Source: Candidatus Brocadia sinica JPN1 (GTDB lineage: Bacteria > Planctomycetota > Brocadiia > Brocadiales > Brocadiaceae). From it: DNA of 64,000 bases. The notes beneath the pieces were generated by a model. It was not told where the DNA came from, did no database searches, and saw nothing but the letters and a program-made list of their open reading frames with translations. The DNA lies in NCBI RefSeq assembly GCF_000949635.1, contig NZ_BAFN01000001.1:1054001-1118000 (forward strand). Reading direction: 5' to 3'. Made by a program: the position numbers and the translations under genes. Within the stretch, counting starts at the first letter, position 1. Each line of letters starts with the position of its first letter. Positions 25,887 to 37,643 of this stretch are shown here, one piece after another.

Positions 25887-25915
25887 TTGACAAAAAATTG
25901 AATACGTAGTATATT
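25887..25915 (+). promoter_or_regulatory. Sigma-70-type promoter driving fluoride riboswitch 1
   Basis: TTGACA (25887-25892), 17-bp spacer, TATATT (25910-25915). The aptamer begins 22 bp after the -10 box, so the transcript starts just before it. Confidence 0.7.
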
Positions 25916-25936
25916 TTCGCATATAATTAAAATTCA

Positions 25937-25987
25937 GGCGATGGAGTTCGCCAATTGCTATATGATAGCTGATAACTCCTATTGAAG
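25937..25987 (+). ncRNA. Fluoride riboswitch (crcB motif), copy 1
   Basis: The sequence matches the crcB aptamer piece by piece: stem GGCG/CGCC enclosing AUGGAGUU, the joining AA, hairpin UGCUAU...AUAGC, then UGAUAACUCCUAUUG. GGAGUU pairs with AACUCC to form P1. The same AACUCCUAUUGAAG is the 5' arm of a terminator, so fluoride binding should stabilise P1 and let transcription continue (ON switch), as described for other crcB riboswitches. Alignment is to the published consensus from memory, not a covariance search. Confidence 0.85.
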
Positions 25988-26013
25988 CCAGATACTTCGA
26001 TAGGAGTTTTTTA
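25974..26013 (+). terminator. Expression-platform terminator of riboswitch 1
   Basis: AACTCCTATTGAAG (25974-25987) pairs with CTTCGATAGGAGTT (25995-26008), followed by a T run. It shares its 5' arm with the aptamer. Confidence 0.88.
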
Positions 26014-26021
26014 TTTATAAG

Positions 26022-26061
26022 AACCCCTGTCGAAGACAAGGTCTCGACAGGGGTTTTTTTA
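26022..26061 (+). terminator. Second terminator directly behind riboswitch 1
   Basis: A perfect 12-bp stem AACCCCTGTCGA/TCGACAGGGGTT followed by seven T. It starts 14 bases after the riboswitch stem and is not linked to the aptamer by pairing, so it should stop even read-through transcripts. Confidence 0.88.
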
Positions 26062-26118
26062 TTACACCGTTATACTGCGTAAAATAAATCCCTGTCCTAA
26101 AATTCCTAGGAGGGATTT

Positions 26119-26319
26119 ATGGAAAAGATTATCGGTATTAAGGATCTTCAGGATGCGGGTTTGTTGGGCGTTAAATATACGGAGTCAGATTTGTGTGATG
26201 CCTTTTTGATGTACTGGATTTCAAATAATAAGTTAAATAAAGACCAGGTTGTTTTGCGTGACGGTGAATTTATGCTTGATATCCGTAGTTATTTTGAGTC
26301 GTGTAATTGGATGGTTTAA
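26119..26319 (+). CDS. 66-residue protein of unknown function
   Basis: ATG 26119 has a good AGGAGGG site 5 bases before it (26108-26114). The acidic protein MEKIIGIKDLQDAGLLGVKY contains no signal peptide, membrane helix or Cys pair; the C-terminal half (VVLRDGEFMLDIRSYFES) looks like a compact alpha/beta segment. I do not recognise the family. It is the first gene downstream of fluoride riboswitch 1 and 112 bp before the dynamin-like gene. Confidence 0.6.
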   Translation: MEKIIGIKDLQDAGLLGVKYTESDLCDAFLMYWISNNKLNKDQVVLRDGEFMLDIRSYFESCNWMV

Positions 26320-26430
26320 GCAGAAAAGTGTAAAAATGATACAGGAAGAAAGGCAGACGGTGGACAATAAATTTTCCAGATTTTAAGGATATTACACCCG
26401 ATGCTTTTGTTTTTATGGAGGTGTTATTCC

Positions 26431-28233
26431 ATGTTAGAAGAATTTATAAGGCATAAAACAGAAATACTGGGCACCATTGAAAATATTGTTGGTTTGATAA
26501 AGGATGATACGGGGGCCGTGGACAACAGGCTGCACATGATCAAGGAACAGTTGATATCAAATTGTTTTAATCTGGTGATTTTAGGACAATTTAAAAGGGG
26601 TAAGACAACCCTCATTAATAGCCTGATCGGTAAGGAAATACTCCCTTCTTCCGTAGTACCACTGACGTCTGTTGTGACAATCCTGAAGTATAGTGAAGAG
26701 GTTAGCTGCGTAGTCTCTATGGAAGACGGCAACGAGAAGAAAATTCGCATAGAGGAACTTCCTGATTATGTAACGGAGAAAGGTAATCCAAAAAATATAC
26801 GGGGCGTACGATGTGCACGCATCGGGTATCCATCCCCTTTCCTTGAAAAAGGGATACTGCTGGTAGACACGCCGGGAGTGGGTTCCACTTTCCTACACAA
26901 TACAGAAACGACCTATGAATTTTTAGATCATCTGGATGCGGCATTGTTTCTCATGAGCGCAGACGTCCCCATTTCGCAGGTAGAGAAAGAACTCCTCGAC
27001 ACGATTAAAGATTCTACCCAGAAGATATTCTTTGTTTTGAACAAGATTGATAATCTGACCCCGAAAGAGATTGAAGAAATCGCCGCCTTCAATAAACAGG
27101 TATTGGAGGAGATGGGATTTACCGTTCAGGAGATCTGGCCTATCTCTGCCAGAGAAGCACTAAAGGCAAAAACGGCGAACAATGACGTTCAACTTTCCCA
27201 GAGTGGCCTTTTGAACCTGGAAGATGCCTTAGGGAGTTTTCTCTCTTTAGAGAAAGGCAAAATCGTCCTCAATACCACCATATCAAAGACAAAGCGGGTC
27301 ATCTCTCAGAAACTATCTCAGATAGCAATTGAAAGAAAGACCATGGAAGCCTCCGGGGAGGAGTTGGAAAATAAGATTAACACCTTTCATCAGCTTGTAG
27401 CGAACCTGAAGCAGGATAGAGAAGATATGAAATATCTGCTCAAAGGAGAATCGGACAAGCTGTGTTTCAGGGTGGAGGAGATGTTAAAGATTTTAGAAGA
27501 AAAGGAGACCCCGAGAGTAAAGCAGTGTCTTACGGATTTCTACGAAAAAAATCCCGATCTCAATCCCACAGCCTTAAGGGATGAAATGCAGAAGGTTATC
27601 AAGGAAGAGATCGTCAGGGGATTCGATGCATTTAGAAAAGATACCGAGAAGGTGATCTCGAATAATATCCAGGAAACCTTCAGCCGTTTCACAAAACGTT
27701 CCAATAATATCATCAACGAGTTTAAGACGGCTGCCGAAATACTCTTTGAGGTATCCATGGAACAATATGAATTTTCCGTTGAACTAGCCAGGGATACTGG
27801 TTTTTATTACATGGTCCAGGAATATACCGCCCCCACGGAAGAAGAGGTCAAGTCCATCCTGCGCGCCTTCCTGCCGAAATCCCTGAGCAGAAAAATGGTC
27901 TTGAACGAGATGATGGAGCGGGTATCCTCCGATGTGGGTAGGAATTGTGGCAGGACACGTTCTGACCTCACAACAAGGATCTGCAAAACCATCGACCATT
28001 ACTCCAAACAACTAAAAGATCTTGGGAGCGATCTTATTGCCCAGATAGAACAAGCCATACAAAAGGGACAGGAGAGGCGAAGAGCAGGCAGCGAGTCTGT
28101 ACGATTTGAACTAGAGTTATTAGCAAGCAAGGCTAAAGCCCTGGAAGGGTACAAAGAAAATCTGGAGAAGGTATGGAACATGATAAATCCGGTGGAGATA
28201 AGCCGTGAACAAAAAGCTGTGGCGATGGCCTAG
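26431..28233 (+). CDS. Dynamin-like GTPase
   Basis: Large GTPase of the bacterial dynamin family, expected to act on membranes by GTP-driven self-assembly. Start chosen at ATG 26431 after GGAGGT. The 600-residue protein has the P-loop GQFKRGKTT (52-60), the switch II region LVDTPGVGS (about 146-154) and NKID (about 205), then a long helical stalk (about 290-600) with coiled-coil character. Switch I probably lies in SSVVPLTSV. It is bracketed by two fluoride riboswitches, one 0.5 kb upstream and one 0.13 kb downstream. Confidence 0.9.
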   Translation: MLEEFIRHKTEILGTIENIVGLIKDDTGAVDNRLHMIKEQLISNCFNLVILGQFKRGKTTLINSLIGKEILPSSVVPLTSVVTILKYSEEVSCVVSMEDGNEKKIRIEELPDYVTEKGNPKNIRGVRCARIGYPSPFLEKGILLVDTPGVGSTFLHNTETTYEFLDHLDAALFLMSADVPISQVEKELLDTIKDSTQKIFFVLNKIDNLTPKEIEEIAAFNKQVLEEMGFTVQEIWPISAREALKAKTANNDVQLSQSGLLNLEDALGSFLSLEKGKIVLNTTISKTKRVISQKLSQIAIERKTMEASGEELENKINTFHQLVANLKQDREDMKYLLKGESDKLCFRVEEMLKILEEKETPRVKQCLTDFYEKNPDLNPTALRDEMQKVIKEEIVRGFDAFRKDTEKVISNNIQETFSRFTKRSNNIINEFKTAAEILFEVSMEQYEFSVELARDTGFYYMVQEYTAPTEEEVKSILRAFLPKSLSRKMVLNEMMERVSSDVGRNCGRTRSDLTTRICKTIDHYSKQLKDLGSDLIAQIEQAIQKGQERRRAGSESVRFELELLASKAKALEGYKENLEKVWNMINPVEISREQKAVAMA

Positions 28234-28308
28234 CGCGACAGAATTGCAACTGAAAAGATGCAGGAGGTGCTTGGCAATAATATATTGGGTCTTCGGCGTC
28301 TTTTATTC

Positions 28309-28348
28309 GCGCAACCGGGGCGGTTGCGCTACCCGTTTGAAATTCTAA
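28309..28348. repeat. Palindromic repeat (first of two), GCGCAACCG/CGGTTGCGC
   Basis: A perfect 9-bp palindrome with GGG loop followed by CTACCCGTTTGAAATTC. A diverged copy at about 28499-28536 (CGCAACCGAGACGGTTG...AGTTTGAAATTC) flanks riboswitch 2 on the other side. Confidence 0.65.
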
Positions 28349-28366
28349 ACGTTTACTTAATATTTA

Positions 28367-28419
28367 GAGCGATGGAGTTCGCTTAACTGCTACATTGTAG
28401 CTGATAACTCCTGTTGAAG
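28367..28419 (+). ncRNA. Fluoride riboswitch (crcB motif), copy 2
   Basis: Same architecture as copy 1: AGCG/CGCU stem around AUGGAGUU, linker UUAACUGCUACAUUGUAGC hairpin, then UGAUAACUCCUGUUGAAG. The stems differ in sequence from copy 1 yet keep pairing (GGCG/CGCC here AGCG/CGCU; CUAU/AUAG here CUAC/GUAG), which is covariation and argues for function. It overlaps a terminator at 28406. The next gene is the PII-like gene at 28681. Confidence 0.87.
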
Positions 28420-28443
28420 TTATTCTTCGATAGGAGTTTTTTT
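28406..28443 (+). terminator. Expression-platform terminator of riboswitch 2
   Basis: AACTCCTGTTGAAG (28406-28419) pairs with CTTCGATAGGAGTT (28425-28438) followed by seven T. Unlike copy 1, no second terminator follows directly. Confidence 0.88.
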
Positions 28444-28498
28444 ATTGAAATTAAGGGAGAGAGTTTTTTTTTAATCAGGCATTTGACAACTTTTTGTT

Positions 28499-28536
28499 AC
28501 GCAACCGAGACGGTTGTACTCCCAGTTTGAAATTCC
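28499..28536. repeat. Palindromic repeat (second of two)
   Basis: CGCAACCGAGACGGTTG then CCCAGTTTGAAATTCC, a diverged copy of 28309-28348. Confidence 0.6.
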
Positions 28537-28580
28537 TTACCTCAACATCAGGATAAAACCCGAAGGGCTGACAGAATATA

Positions 28581-28604
28581 GCCCAGGGAGACAGCCCTGG
28601 GATA
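28581..28604. repeat. CCCAGGG/CCCTGGG hairpin upstream of the PII gene
   Basis: A 7-bp GC-rich stem with a 6-base loop, within a segment beginning CCCGAAGGGCTGACAG. It resembles short dispersed palindromes rather than a terminator, since no T run follows. Confidence 0.45.
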
Positions 28605-28680
28605 AGGATTTCATAATATTTTAGCACTGAAAGGGAGACACATTGTCGTAATTCCACGACATTTCATTAGAGGAGTTTTT

Positions 28681-29018
28681 ATGAAAAAGATAGAGGCAAT
28701 AATCAGGCCGGAAAATTTGATATTGTCAAGGATGCTTTGTTGGAGTTGGGTTATCCGGGAATGACCGTTACAAAAGTAATTGGACAGGGCAAACAAAAAG
28801 GTATCAGCGAAGTATGGCGTGGGAGAAGATTTCGGGTTGACCTCTTATCGAAGATGAAAATCGAAATTACTGTCAGGGACACCGACGTTGAAAGAATCGT
28901 AAATACTATCATCAACGAATCCCAGACGGGGAGTATTGGCGATGGAAAGATATTCGTTTTTGATGTAGAAAACGCGTATCATATTCGCACAAAAGAGTCG
29001 GGCGAAGCTGCAATCTGA
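28681..29018 (+). pseudogene. PII signal-transduction protein (GlnB/GlnK family), one-base frameshift, Tyr51 replaced
   Basis: ATG 28681 follows GAGGAG and starts MKKIEAIIRPE. One base is missing in the A run near 28711; adding it back joins this to KFDIVKDALLELGYPGMTVT and a normal 112-residue PII ending in TGSIGDGKIFVFDVENAYHIRT. After correction the T-loop residue 51 is Phe (GRRFRVDLL) instead of the uridylylated Tyr. PII proteins sense 2-oxoglutarate and ATP/ADP and bind transporters or enzymes of nitrogen metabolism. Its location before two FNT channels hints at control of nitrite or ammonium traffic. The frameshift may be a sequence error. Confidence 0.8.
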
Positions 29019-29041
29019 ATTATGTAGATGGTAAAAGTAAA

Positions 29042-29112
29042 TTGTCATTCCCACGCAAGTGGGAATCCAGGAAAATCACAAAAGACTGGATTCCTGCTTT
29101 CGCAGGAATGAT
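29042..29112. repeat. MITE-like inverted repeat (TGTCATTCCC...GGAATGATA)
   Basis: TCATTCCCACGCAAGTGGGAATCC and GGATTCCTGCTTTCGCAGGAATGA form the two ends, each also containing its own small hairpin. This is a widespread type of dispersed bacterial repeat. It separates the PII gene from the zinc-ribbon gene. Confidence 0.75.
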
Positions 29113-29233
29113 ATAGAGTAACATAATATAAACTTTTTTAAGACATTTACAGTAAGTGATATAAGTAAACTGTTATTTAGTTTTGTTATCCAGTTTTAAC
29201 GAAAAAATATCAGCGATTATAAGGAGGTTATAC

Positions 29234-29518
29234 ATGTTAACTGACACATTCTTTGTATGTCCAAATTGTGGCAACTCTAAAAAATTTAAAGTATTTACCA
29301 GTAGCTTTCAGGTAATTGAACAATCACAAGAAACAGGGATGCGTATCCATGAAAGTAGCATTTTACCCAACTTAAGGCAGACCGATAACTACATTGAATG
29401 CCAGCGATGTTTTCAAAGATATGAATATGATAATGCATCGGTTATTGGTAAAAAATATATTCAAGTGACTAAAGGACTTCAATGTAAAATTCACAACATA
29501 CTGGATGTATTATGTTGA
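29234..29518 (+). CDS. Zinc-ribbon protein of unknown function
   Basis: ATG 29234 follows a strong AAGGAGGT site by 6 bases. The 94-residue product has CPNCG near the N-terminus and CQRC near residue 57, a likely zinc ribbon, followed by a beta-rich tail (YEYDNASVIGKKYIQVT). No known family is recognised. It ends 26 bp before the first FNT channel, so it is probably co-transcribed with it. Confidence 0.7.
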   Translation: MLTDTFFVCPNCGNSKKFKVFTSSFQVIEQSQETGMRIHESSILPNLRQTDNYIECQRCFQRYEYDNASVIGKKYIQVTKGLQCKIHNILDVLC

Positions 29519-29544
29519 ATAAAGATCAAAAAAGGAGGTAATTT

Positions 29545-30447
29545 ATGTCTGCCGAAGGGAATGAAGGTGCAAACAATCAGGAACCTACTGCACCAGTTAT
29601 TGAGCTTGATACCTATGAACCGTCTGAAATGGCCGATCAAGTGGGACAGGTGGGTATCTCAAAGACGAATCTTGGTGCTTTGACCATGCTCGGCCTCAGT
29701 ATCCTCGCAGGTGTCTTTATTGCCCTTGGTGCACAGCTCTCCATATTAGTAACACATACCGCAACCTCAAATTATAGTTTAAATCAACTCATCGGCGGGG
29801 TCGCATTTACCCTGGCAATGGTTTTGATCGTAATCACCGGCGCCGAACTCTTTACCGGGAACCCCCTTGTTGCAATGTCTTTTATGGCCCGAAAAATTAC
29901 CGGCAAGGATTTTGTTAGAAATCTGATTATTGTATTTATTGGTAATTTTATTGGCGCATTAACCCTCGTTTTGTGGATATACAACTCTGAGCAATGGATG
30001 ATGAACAATTATCTCCTTGGCGCCAAAATCGTCCTTGCCGCCAATAATAAAGTAAACGTCCCGTTTGGTGTCGTCTTTGTGCGGGGAATGATTGGTAATG
30101 CCTTGATTTGTCTGGGTGTTTGGTTATGTTATCGTGGTAAAAGTAATATCGACAAAATACTTGGACTACTCTTGCCCACATCTTGCCTTATCGCCTGCAA
30201 CTTCGAGCATTCTGTTGTCAACATGTGGCTTATCCCTATGGGATTAATCCTGAAGGGCAACCATGCCGTAATGGCCGTCGCTGAAGATGTACACGGTGGT
30301 AGGCTCGATATTGCAAACCTCACCTTTTTTAAGGGATTTTTAATTGATAATTTGTGTCCTGTTGTCCTGGGAAACCTTTTCGGCGGTATTCTCTTGATTG
30401 CAGCCGCATACTGGTTTGCCTATGTACGCCCTTTAAAGAAATACTAA
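29545..30447 (+). CDS. Formate/nitrite transporter (FNT) family channel 1
   Basis: Pentameric channel for small monovalent weak-acid anions such as formate or nitrite. The 300-residue protein has an extended hydrophilic N-terminus (about 45 residues, acidic), then six membrane segments. Family motifs seen: GAELFTGN at the first half-helix, RGMIGNALICLGVWL, and the pore histidine region CNFEHSVVNMW. A GGAGGT site precedes ATG 29545. The substrate cannot be read from the sequence; nitrite import would fit an anammox host, as inference. Confidence 0.93.
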   Translation: MSAEGNEGANNQEPTAPVIELDTYEPSEMADQVGQVGISKTNLGALTMLGLSILAGVFIALGAQLSILVTHTATSNYSLNQLIGGVAFTLAMVLIVITGAELFTGNPLVAMSFMARKITGKDFVRNLIIVFIGNFIGALTLVLWIYNSEQWMMNNYLLGAKIVLAANNKVNVPFGVVFVRGMIGNALICLGVWLCYRGKSNIDKILGLLLPTSCLIACNFEHSVVNMWLIPMGLILKGNHAVMAVAEDVHGGRLDIANLTFFKGFLIDNLCPVVLGNLFGGILLIAAAYWFAYVRPLKKY

Positions 30448-30459
30448 AGGAAAACGAAA

Positions 30460-31386
30460 ATGGCAGAAAATGATATTCAAAATCCGAATCGGGCGGTGAA
30501 TATGGATACAGCATATTCACCGGTACAAACAGCTTCCACAATTGAAAACAAGGCCGTTGTAAGGGCGCGATTCCGCGTCTCACAAACATTCGTATTAAGT
30601 ATTTTAGCAGGTATTTATATTGCTCTGGGCGCCCAGTTTGCCTCGTTTGTCACCAGCGATTCCACCCTTCACTTTGGCGCTACTTGCCTTATTACCGGCA
30701 TCGTATTTTCTCTCGGTCTTATCCTGGTTGAGGTTGCCGGCGCGGAACTCTTTACAGGCAACAATCTCAATATCATGGGCTATCTGAGCAAAAAGATTAC
30801 GACACGTGAATTGCTCAGGGTCTGGACTCTTGTGTATATTGGTAATTTTATTGGAAGTATGCTCATGGTTTTCCTGATGAATATGGCGCATCAATGGGAG
30901 TATTTTCAATGCATGGCGGGTGCAAAGGCGTTGATAATTGCTTATAAAAAAGTGAATCTTACTTTTAGTGCAGCCCTGACACGGGGCGTGCTGTGTAATG
31001 CCCTAGTATGCCTTAACTCCTGGTTGTGCTATAGCAGTAAAAGAGTAGCAGACAAGGTCCTTTCAAATATATTTGTCATCGGCGGTTTCGTTGCCAGCGG
31101 GTTTGAGCACTGCGTTGCAAATATGTATTTTATTCCCATGGGTTTGGTGTTACGAAAAAATCCAGACGTCGTTGCTGCCGCTGAAAAAATGGCAGGCAAA
31201 TCGTTAGACCTTTCTTTACTTACATGGAAGGGATTTTTGGTAAACAACCTCTTCCCCGTTACTATGGGAAATCTTGTAGGAGGGGTTATTCTGATTGGCG
31301 TCGTGTTCTGGTTTATTTATCTGCGACCACATATTAGTTATTTATCCCTTGAAGTAAAACCAGATTTTCCTCAAAACAAAAAGTAA
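30460..31386 (+). CDS. Formate/nitrite transporter (FNT) family channel 2
   Basis: A diverged paralogue of the preceding gene, 308 residues, 12 bp downstream, so the pair arose by tandem duplication and is one operon. Motifs: GAELFTGNNLNIMG, RGVLCNALVCLNSWL and GFEHCVANMYFIPMG, with pore His retained. It has extra Cys residues in the pore-lining segments (CNALVC, EHCVANM) compared with channel 1. The N-terminal 45 residues are hydrophilic. A rho-independent terminator follows. Confidence 0.93.
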   Translation: MAENDIQNPNRAVNMDTAYSPVQTASTIENKAVVRARFRVSQTFVLSILAGIYIALGAQFASFVTSDSTLHFGATCLITGIVFSLGLILVEVAGAELFTGNNLNIMGYLSKKITTRELLRVWTLVYIGNFIGSMLMVFLMNMAHQWEYFQCMAGAKALIIAYKKVNLTFSAALTRGVLCNALVCLNSWLCYSSKRVADKVLSNIFVIGGFVASGFEHCVANMYFIPMGLVLRKNPDVVAAAEKMAGKSLDLSLLTWKGFLVNNLFPVTMGNLVGGVILIGVVFWFIYLRPHISYLSLEVKPDFPQNKK

Positions 31387-37517: not shown

Positions 37518-37643
37518 CATCGCGATAAAGACAAACCCTGAGTGATCAGGTGGCGCAAAGTAAAGGGTCTTTTAAACAGACCAAGAGCGCAGTTTATAAA
37601 AGACCGCTTGTTGGGAAAAAAGATAGCCTTACTGCCGAAGATG
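37518..37643 (+). ncRNA. Candidate cyclic-di-GMP-I (GEMM-I) riboswitch
   Basis: Pieces of the GEMM-I aptamer occur in order: GACAAACC, a hairpin CCUGA-GUGA-UCAGG with a GNRA tetraloop, UGGCGCAAAG, a long P3 stem GGUCUUUUAAAC/GUUUAUAAAAGACC starting with the typical GGGUCU, and a 3' segment GAUAGCCUUACUGCCGAAG. CAUC at the 5' end can pair with GAUG at the 3' end. The 3' segment is shared with a terminator. The downstream gene encodes a secreted YD-repeat protein, a usual kind of c-di-GMP target. A reading frame through this region (37550-37792) is best explained as accidental. Confidence 0.7.

Follow-up and report, generated by a model that had tools for sequence, protein, structure and literature searches.

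Two linked terminators follow a fluoride riboswitch across Brocadiaceae and are probably coupled by a strand relay

The riboswitch 1 locus

The window, by which we mean the whole stretch of DNA analysed, covers 64 kb of a 4.08 Mb genome of the family Brocadiaceae (anammox bacteria; Candidatus Brocadia, Kuenenia, Loosdrechtia). Genome-wide there are exactly two fluoride riboswitches, and both lie inside the window. The features around them are as follows.

25887–25915, + strand: promoter of the riboswitch transcript, TTGACA-17-TATATT, an 11/12 consensus match
25928–25988, + strand: fluoride riboswitch aptamer (riboswitch 1), RF01734, 43.0 bits (gathering 34)
25974–26012, + strand: terminator T1, with 5′ arm 25974–25987 AACTCCTATTGAAG, 3′ arm 25995–26008 CTTCGATAGGAGTT and U tract 26007–26012
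25995–26035, + strand: proposed anti-T2 hairpin, T1 3′ arm 25995–26008 with T2 5′ arm 26022–26035
26022–26060, + strand: terminator T2, with 5′ arm 26022–26033 AACCCCTGTCGA, 3′ arm 26044–26055 TCGACAGGGGTT and U tract 26054–26060
26086–26114, + strand: leader hairpin of the 66-aa gene; its anti-SD strand AAATCCCTGTCC (26086–26097) can pair with the SD region AGGAGGG (26108–26114) or with the T2 3′ arm (26046–26056)
26119–26319, + strand: 66-aa conserved protein, the first gene after T2; an ORF with homologues in relatives
26431–28233, + strand: dynamin-like GTPase (Dynamin_N, 1.7e-28), with homologues beside most switches
28359–28438, + strand: second fluoride riboswitch, RF01734, 44.5 bits, with its own T1 and no T2

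In riboswitch 1 the pseudoknot, read from the sequence, pairs GGAGTT (25943–25948) with AACTCC (25974–25979), and the CTCC columns of this strand are invariant across 34 relatives. The first-pass annotation had proposed that the 3′ strand of the aptamer lies within T1, as in ON switches, and this is supported: AACUCC is common to the aptamer and the intrinsic terminator, which is the transcriptional ON type. A six-nucleotide strand exchange between pseudoknot and terminator is described for the known fluoride switch (PMC13273304). Model score, pseudoknot and terminator-shared 3′ strand together identify riboswitch 1 as a member of RF01734. Promoters comparable to that in the window (mostly 10–12/12) stand upstream of the lead riboswitches of relatives. 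An ATG within the aptamer starts a short reading frame, which was rejected as a leader peptide because indels in the aptamers of relatives would, by eye, break it.

One aptamer precedes two terminators

T1 is a 14-bp terminator whose first six bases are the pseudoknot strand; covariation of its helix, analysed in relatives, is cited in its support. After a spacing of 13 nt between the stems comes T2, a stem of 12 perfect pairs followed by seven U. The coordinates proposed in the first-pass annotation for riboswitch 1 and its two terminators were thus right, as was the presence of a perfect 12-bp terminator after T1, located here at 26022–26055. T2 folds at −27 kcal/mol (z −8.3) and the aptamer with both terminators at −59.1 kcal/mol (z −8.2), and in neither case was a shuffle equally stable. 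By strict criteria only eight terminator-like hairpins occur on both strands of the 64 kb, and T1 and T2 are the sole pair of them within 60 nt.

The leader is therefore a single-aptamer dual-terminator platform, with two rho-independent terminators before the first gene. It is not a tandem riboswitch, in which there are two complete aptamers per leader: a single aptamer precedes both terminators, no Rfam match to a second aptamer was found near the leader, and the next aptamer is 2.4 kb downstream. An RNA running from the promoter to T2 would be about 140 nt long, close to the ∼150 nt suggested initially.

T2 is conserved in Brocadiaceae

We searched 33 genomes of the family and found 41 fluoride riboswitches in 23 of them, representing all 11 genera. 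T1 is present in 37 of the 41, and 34 of these 37, from 11 genera, have T2 as well. The two-terminator arrangement after a fluoride aptamer thus recurs across the family and is no quirk of one genome. Over the 34 loci 92.6% of the cells of the T2 helix are paired, six pairs show two-sided changes, and the covariation exceeds that of all 500 shuffles, which indicates that T2 is a real helix. In outgroups from the other families of the order, the same dynamin-like gene comes immediately after aptamer and T1, with no T2 between, and because of this we place the gain of T2 at or before the base of Brocadiaceae, after which it was kept. It has been lost in the second switch of the window and in one switch of genome G010. 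In the latter, what appears to be the downstream flank of T2 comes after the T1 3′ arm, which points to a deletion from one 3′ arm to the other.

The genome of the window contains a single copy of the T2 pattern, and family-wide it is found only after fluoride riboswitches, plus one remnant in genome G009. The possibility that T2 is a dispersed repeat or generic terminator was ruled out by this near-exclusive location at fluoride riboswitch loci. In the GTDB collection, records with the combined T1 and T2 pattern contain fluoride aptamers only when they are of the anammox type (Brocadia, Kuenenia, Loosdrechtia, other Planctomycetota); at the remaining loci the aptamer motif is absent. The G009 hairpin (L066:1501-1535) is an aptamer-less T2 that runs directly into the beginning of an eroded dynamin-like gene, and is apparently what is left of a lost switch.

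Genes beyond T2

The dynamin-like GTPase is the commonest target of the fluoride switches of the family, and at loci where it follows directly the distance from the end of the T2 U tract to the start codon is 19 to about 40 nt. No conserved promoter was found after T2 among relatives, and the best match in the window reaches only 8/12. Because of this short gap and the lack of a conserved promoter, the downstream genes are judged to depend on read-through of T2. T2 must therefore be either leaky or relieved.

Other neighbours of the family's switches are PII, zinc-ribbon, HEAT and formate/nitrite (FNT) channel genes, the part of the window concerned being 25928–31386; the 66-aa protein has no Pfam match. 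Linkage to a known fluoride exporter (CrcB/Fluc or CLC-F), which is common and not required for RF01734 membership, was not seen. CrcB is absent from all 33 family genomes. CLC genes occur in only 22 of the 33, and the two in the window's genome, of unassigned subtype, are located elsewhere; nine riboswitch-bearing genomes have no CLC match, two of them being rated 100% complete. The FNT channel is a candidate for an unrecognised fluoride exporter, and the switches would mark a fluoride regulon in anammox bacteria without CrcB.

The 3′ arm of T1 is complementary to the 5′ arm of T2

The T1 3′ arm CUUCGAUAGGAGUU can form 13 of 14 pairs, including one U·G, with the T2 5′ arm AACCCCUGUCGAAG, the fourteenth position being an A·C mismatch. 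In the window this anti-T2 duplex has an energy of −16.2 kcal/mol. T1 and T2 resemble each other, and some cross-complementarity is expected from duplication alone. We therefore used as a control the mirror pairing between the T1 5′ arm and the T2 3′ arm, which simple duplication predicts to be equally retained.

The mean duplex energy was −14.8 kcal/mol for the inner pairing (T1 3′ arm with T2 5′ arm) and −11.7 kcal/mol for the mirror pairing (genus-level Wilcoxon p = 0.019), and cognate arms paired better than swapped arms for the inner pairing (permutation p = 0.00025) versus 0.10 for the mirror control. The loci are related, and p-values that treat them as independent overstate the significance. 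The covarying changes are few: four pairs and seven cells of the inner helix carry two-sided changes (3/500 and 0/500 shuffles), compared with one pair and one cell of the mirror helix (426/500 shuffles). Two of the loci are diagnostic: at one (G028:C181:2305-2366) an inner pair has changed from G-C to A-U with the outer partners unchanged; at the other (G019:C7:47255-47317) an inner pair has changed from C-G to G-C at an alignment column that is unpaired in both T1 and T2. The outer strands are where the wobbles occur, as U(5′)·G(3′) in T1 (30 versus 8) and as G(5′)·U(3′) in T2 (29 versus 8). In genera 6 and 9 the mirror pairing equals or beats the inner pairing in energy. Because the inner pairing is kept better than its mirror, duplication alone fits these observations poorly. 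The A·C mismatch is itself kept in 33 of the 34 loci, possibly because a CUCC in the T2 5′ arm would compete for GGAG of the aptamer.

A proposed kinetic strand relay

Energies were calculated with nearest-neighbour secondary-structure models in which the bound aptamer was represented by an unpaired constraint on the six pseudoknot bases. In this bound-state model of the window RNA, the anti-T2 hairpin is the minimum free energy (MFE) structure at 58–78 nt exposed, and T2 becomes favoured only once its 3′ arm is almost complete. At least eight anti-T2 pairs form first in the modelled bound state of all 34 loci, and T2 overtakes anti-T2 with a delay of about 4 nt relative to the apo state. As direct-path estimates from a secondary-structure model, which bear on plausibility only, the median barriers for the T2 5′ arm to take the T1 3′ arm are 4.6 kcal/mol in the bound state versus 11.6 kcal/mol in the apo state with T1 closed; the former is low because GGAGUU is a free toehold. 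The median barrier for T2 to displace anti-T2, estimated in the same way, is about 10 kcal/mol, which by the usual rate assumptions would be slow relative to the passage of polymerase. T2 is thermodynamically favoured once its 3′ arm has fully emerged. Since T2 wins at equilibrium, any relay must act kinetically; strands are likewise exchanged kinetically, while transcription proceeds, in the known fluoride switch (PMC13273304).

From the parts of the leader, their conservation and their covarying complementarity, we infer that one aptamer controls two serial terminators by a kinetic, ligand-dependent strand relay in a fluoride ON switch, a reading to which we assign a probability of about 60%. 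Without fluoride, the T1 5′ arm would leave the pseudoknot, so that T1 forms and terminates transcription; for polymerases that slip past, the T1 3′ arm would be locked in T1, and T2 would form too. With fluoride, AACUCC would be held in the pseudoknot and T1 would be unable to close. The freed T1 3′ arm, with GGAGUU as toehold, would then capture the emerging T2 5′ arm, and the resulting anti-T2 hairpin would outlast the short stay of polymerase on the T2 U tract, allowing transcription of the genes. The gain would be a lower leak in the OFF state, the product of two leaks, from one ligand and one aptamer.

Alternatives to the relay

T2 might instead be a constitutive, leaky fail-safe that arose by tandem duplication of T1, with fluoride acting on T1 only and the cross-pairing a by-product. 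The sequence similarity of T1 and T2 and the equilibrium preference for T2 are in agreement with this, and there is a precedent in the Bacillus thuringiensis switch Bc1, where two terminators follow one aptamer and T2 is unrelieved by ligand (PMC11218506). Duplication, however, predicts equal cross-pairings, whereas the inner one is better kept and covaries and the mirror does not; moreover, a 12-bp, seven-U terminator that is never relieved would silence intact and conserved genes. We consider this explanation possible, though on balance unlikely. The first-pass annotation had itself suggested a fail-safe, one that needs a further input. A fail-safe function is plausible; the separate input seems unneeded, as the freed T1 3′ arm is a good anti-T2 strand. 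An AND gate, in which a protein antiterminator, coupling to translation or another ligand relieves T2, would account for the pair of serial terminators behind a single aptamer, and in Bc1 the DNA of the dual terminator is bound by Zur protein (PMC11218506). Nevertheless, Rfam gives no second aptamer at the leader, neither a conserved leader peptide nor a conserved protein site was recognised, sequences vary in the T2 loop and in the T1–T2 spacer, and the relay itself would supply the antitermination strand, all of which make such a gate improbable.

Another initial proposal was a stand-alone small RNA that responds to fluoride. With its end at T2 it would be about 140 nt long, and the promoter and the two terminators could delimit it. 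Against this stands the dependence of the genes on passing T2, a terminator retained shortly before genes in 11 genera. These are the genes of one regulon, with T2 as near as 19 nt to the start codon and often 19–40 nt before that of the dynamin-like gene. The variable loop and spacer, the absence of any unpaired seed conserved between the hairpins or beyond them, and the outgroups, which retain the gene link without T2, count against it too, and we think it very improbable. The remaining explanation is that the downstream genes are transcribed from a promoter within T2 or beyond it, so that the riboswitch has no bearing on them. TTGACA does occur within the T2 3′ arm at several loci, and the best matches after T2 reach 10/12 in a few. 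Between 26061 and 26119, where the first-pass annotation had considered such a promoter, the 8/12 match is not conserved, and among relatives neither the −10 elements nor their positions are conserved, compared with 10–12/12 for the upstream promoter of lead switches. At dynamin-direct loci with only 19–30 nt to the ATG, transcripts would start about at the ATG, though some of these loci have a Shine-Dalgarno sequence. This explanation is hardly credible to us.

A possible third step

If the relay operates, it may extend to translation. In leaders of the 66-aa gene a hairpin hides the Shine-Dalgarno sequence, and its 5′ strand, AAAUCCCUGUC, also matches the T2 3′ arm. The duplex of the T2 3′ arm with the leader (−18.2) was equalled by none of 200 shuffles, and pairing of the T2 3′ arm with the anti-SD strand is significant versus shuffles in most 66-aa leaders. 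This pairing is present in the MFE structure of the bound model at 122–128 nt; at equilibrium of the full-length leader, most loci return to T2 and a closed SD hairpin. No specificity of cognate over swapped partners was detected for this pairing (p = 0.24), and three loci in two genera have matched CAAGGG/CCCUUG versions. Together these results hint at a third step, which might free the Shine-Dalgarno sequence of the 66-aa gene.

On that assumption the leader would be a three-stage domino of seven consecutive segments (aptamer loop, T1 5′ arm, T1 3′ arm, T2 5′ arm, T2 3′ arm, anti-SD and SD), each complementary to the next, in which fluoride shifts the register by one. Without fluoride there would be two terminators and a hidden Shine-Dalgarno sequence; with fluoride both terminators and the ribosome site would be opened. 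We regard this scheme as speculative and rather doubtful. Were it true, one ion would control transcription twice and translation once, and such a relay would arise of itself whenever a terminator hairpin is duplicated, which would be an easy way to reach multi-step RNA logic.

Relation to known systems

The fluoride switch and the T1 mechanism are already established, and the second, linked terminator is a new variant; the arrangement is certain and the relay probable. Riboswitch 1 has the same aptamer and pseudoknot as the fluoride (crcB) riboswitch RF01734, and the same T1 sharing six pseudoknot bases by strand exchange (PMC13273304). It differs in having a second terminator with its own U tract, complementary to the T1 3′ arm, and in its targets, which are dynamin-like GTPase, 66-aa protein, PII and FNT genes and not crcB. 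A 2026 study of covariation in fluoride riboswitches and their expression platforms does not mention tandem or second terminators (PMC13273304), and in the open-access literature we found nothing on a fluoride riboswitch with anammox or a nitrite transporter.

The closest parallel, the c-di-GMP-I riboswitch Bc1, likewise has one aptamer and two nearby rho-independent terminators, 28 bp apart, an organization called rarely seen by its authors; ligand opens T1 there, and T2 stays active and masks the response, whereas T2 here looks, in our models, to be openable by the freed T1 strand, and no strand relay is described in the available part of the Bc1 report (PMC11218506). Tandem riboswitches such as the Na+ plus c-di-AMP gate also place two terminators in series, but with one aptamer per terminator rather than one for two (PMC9337991). 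The rimP-leader with its tandem upstream terminator in Gammaproteobacteria shares the two-terminator attenuator and potential antiterminator; it has no known ligand aptamer, and its terminator motifs are inverse to each other (PMC2965389).

If the relay is true, one small-ion aptamer runs two serial terminators by strand hand-off, giving a tighter OFF state with no second sensor, and hairpin duplication would be a simple evolutionary route to cascaded RNA switches. The second terminator of Bc1 defeats regulation (PMC11218506), and the many natural sequence variants in Brocadiaceae could reveal what keeps a second terminator responsive to ligand.

Additional observations

A few internal switches of the family lack a terminator and have a ribosome site nearby. 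In the T1-less riboswitches L043:10754-10814, L044:5242-5302 and L047:7463-7523, ACTCC could pair with a nearby Shine-Dalgarno sequence (GGAGG or GAGGAG), and these may be fluoride switches that act on translation. Two aptamers, 123 nt apart, occur in L047: one is of the terminator type and the other possibly translational.

In the window, the PII-like gene at 28682–29018 has an apparent one-base frameshift near its start; the gene may truly be a pseudogene, or the assembly may be wrong at this point. A match to Acido-Lenti-1 RNA (28556–28601, − strand, 39.6 bits) lies a short way downstream of the second fluoride riboswitch and opposite to it in strand, and is adjoined by a repeated CGCAACCG..CGGTTG element at 28312 and 28500. 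A c-di-GMP-I riboswitch match lies at 37520–37639 (+ strand, 49.3 bits).
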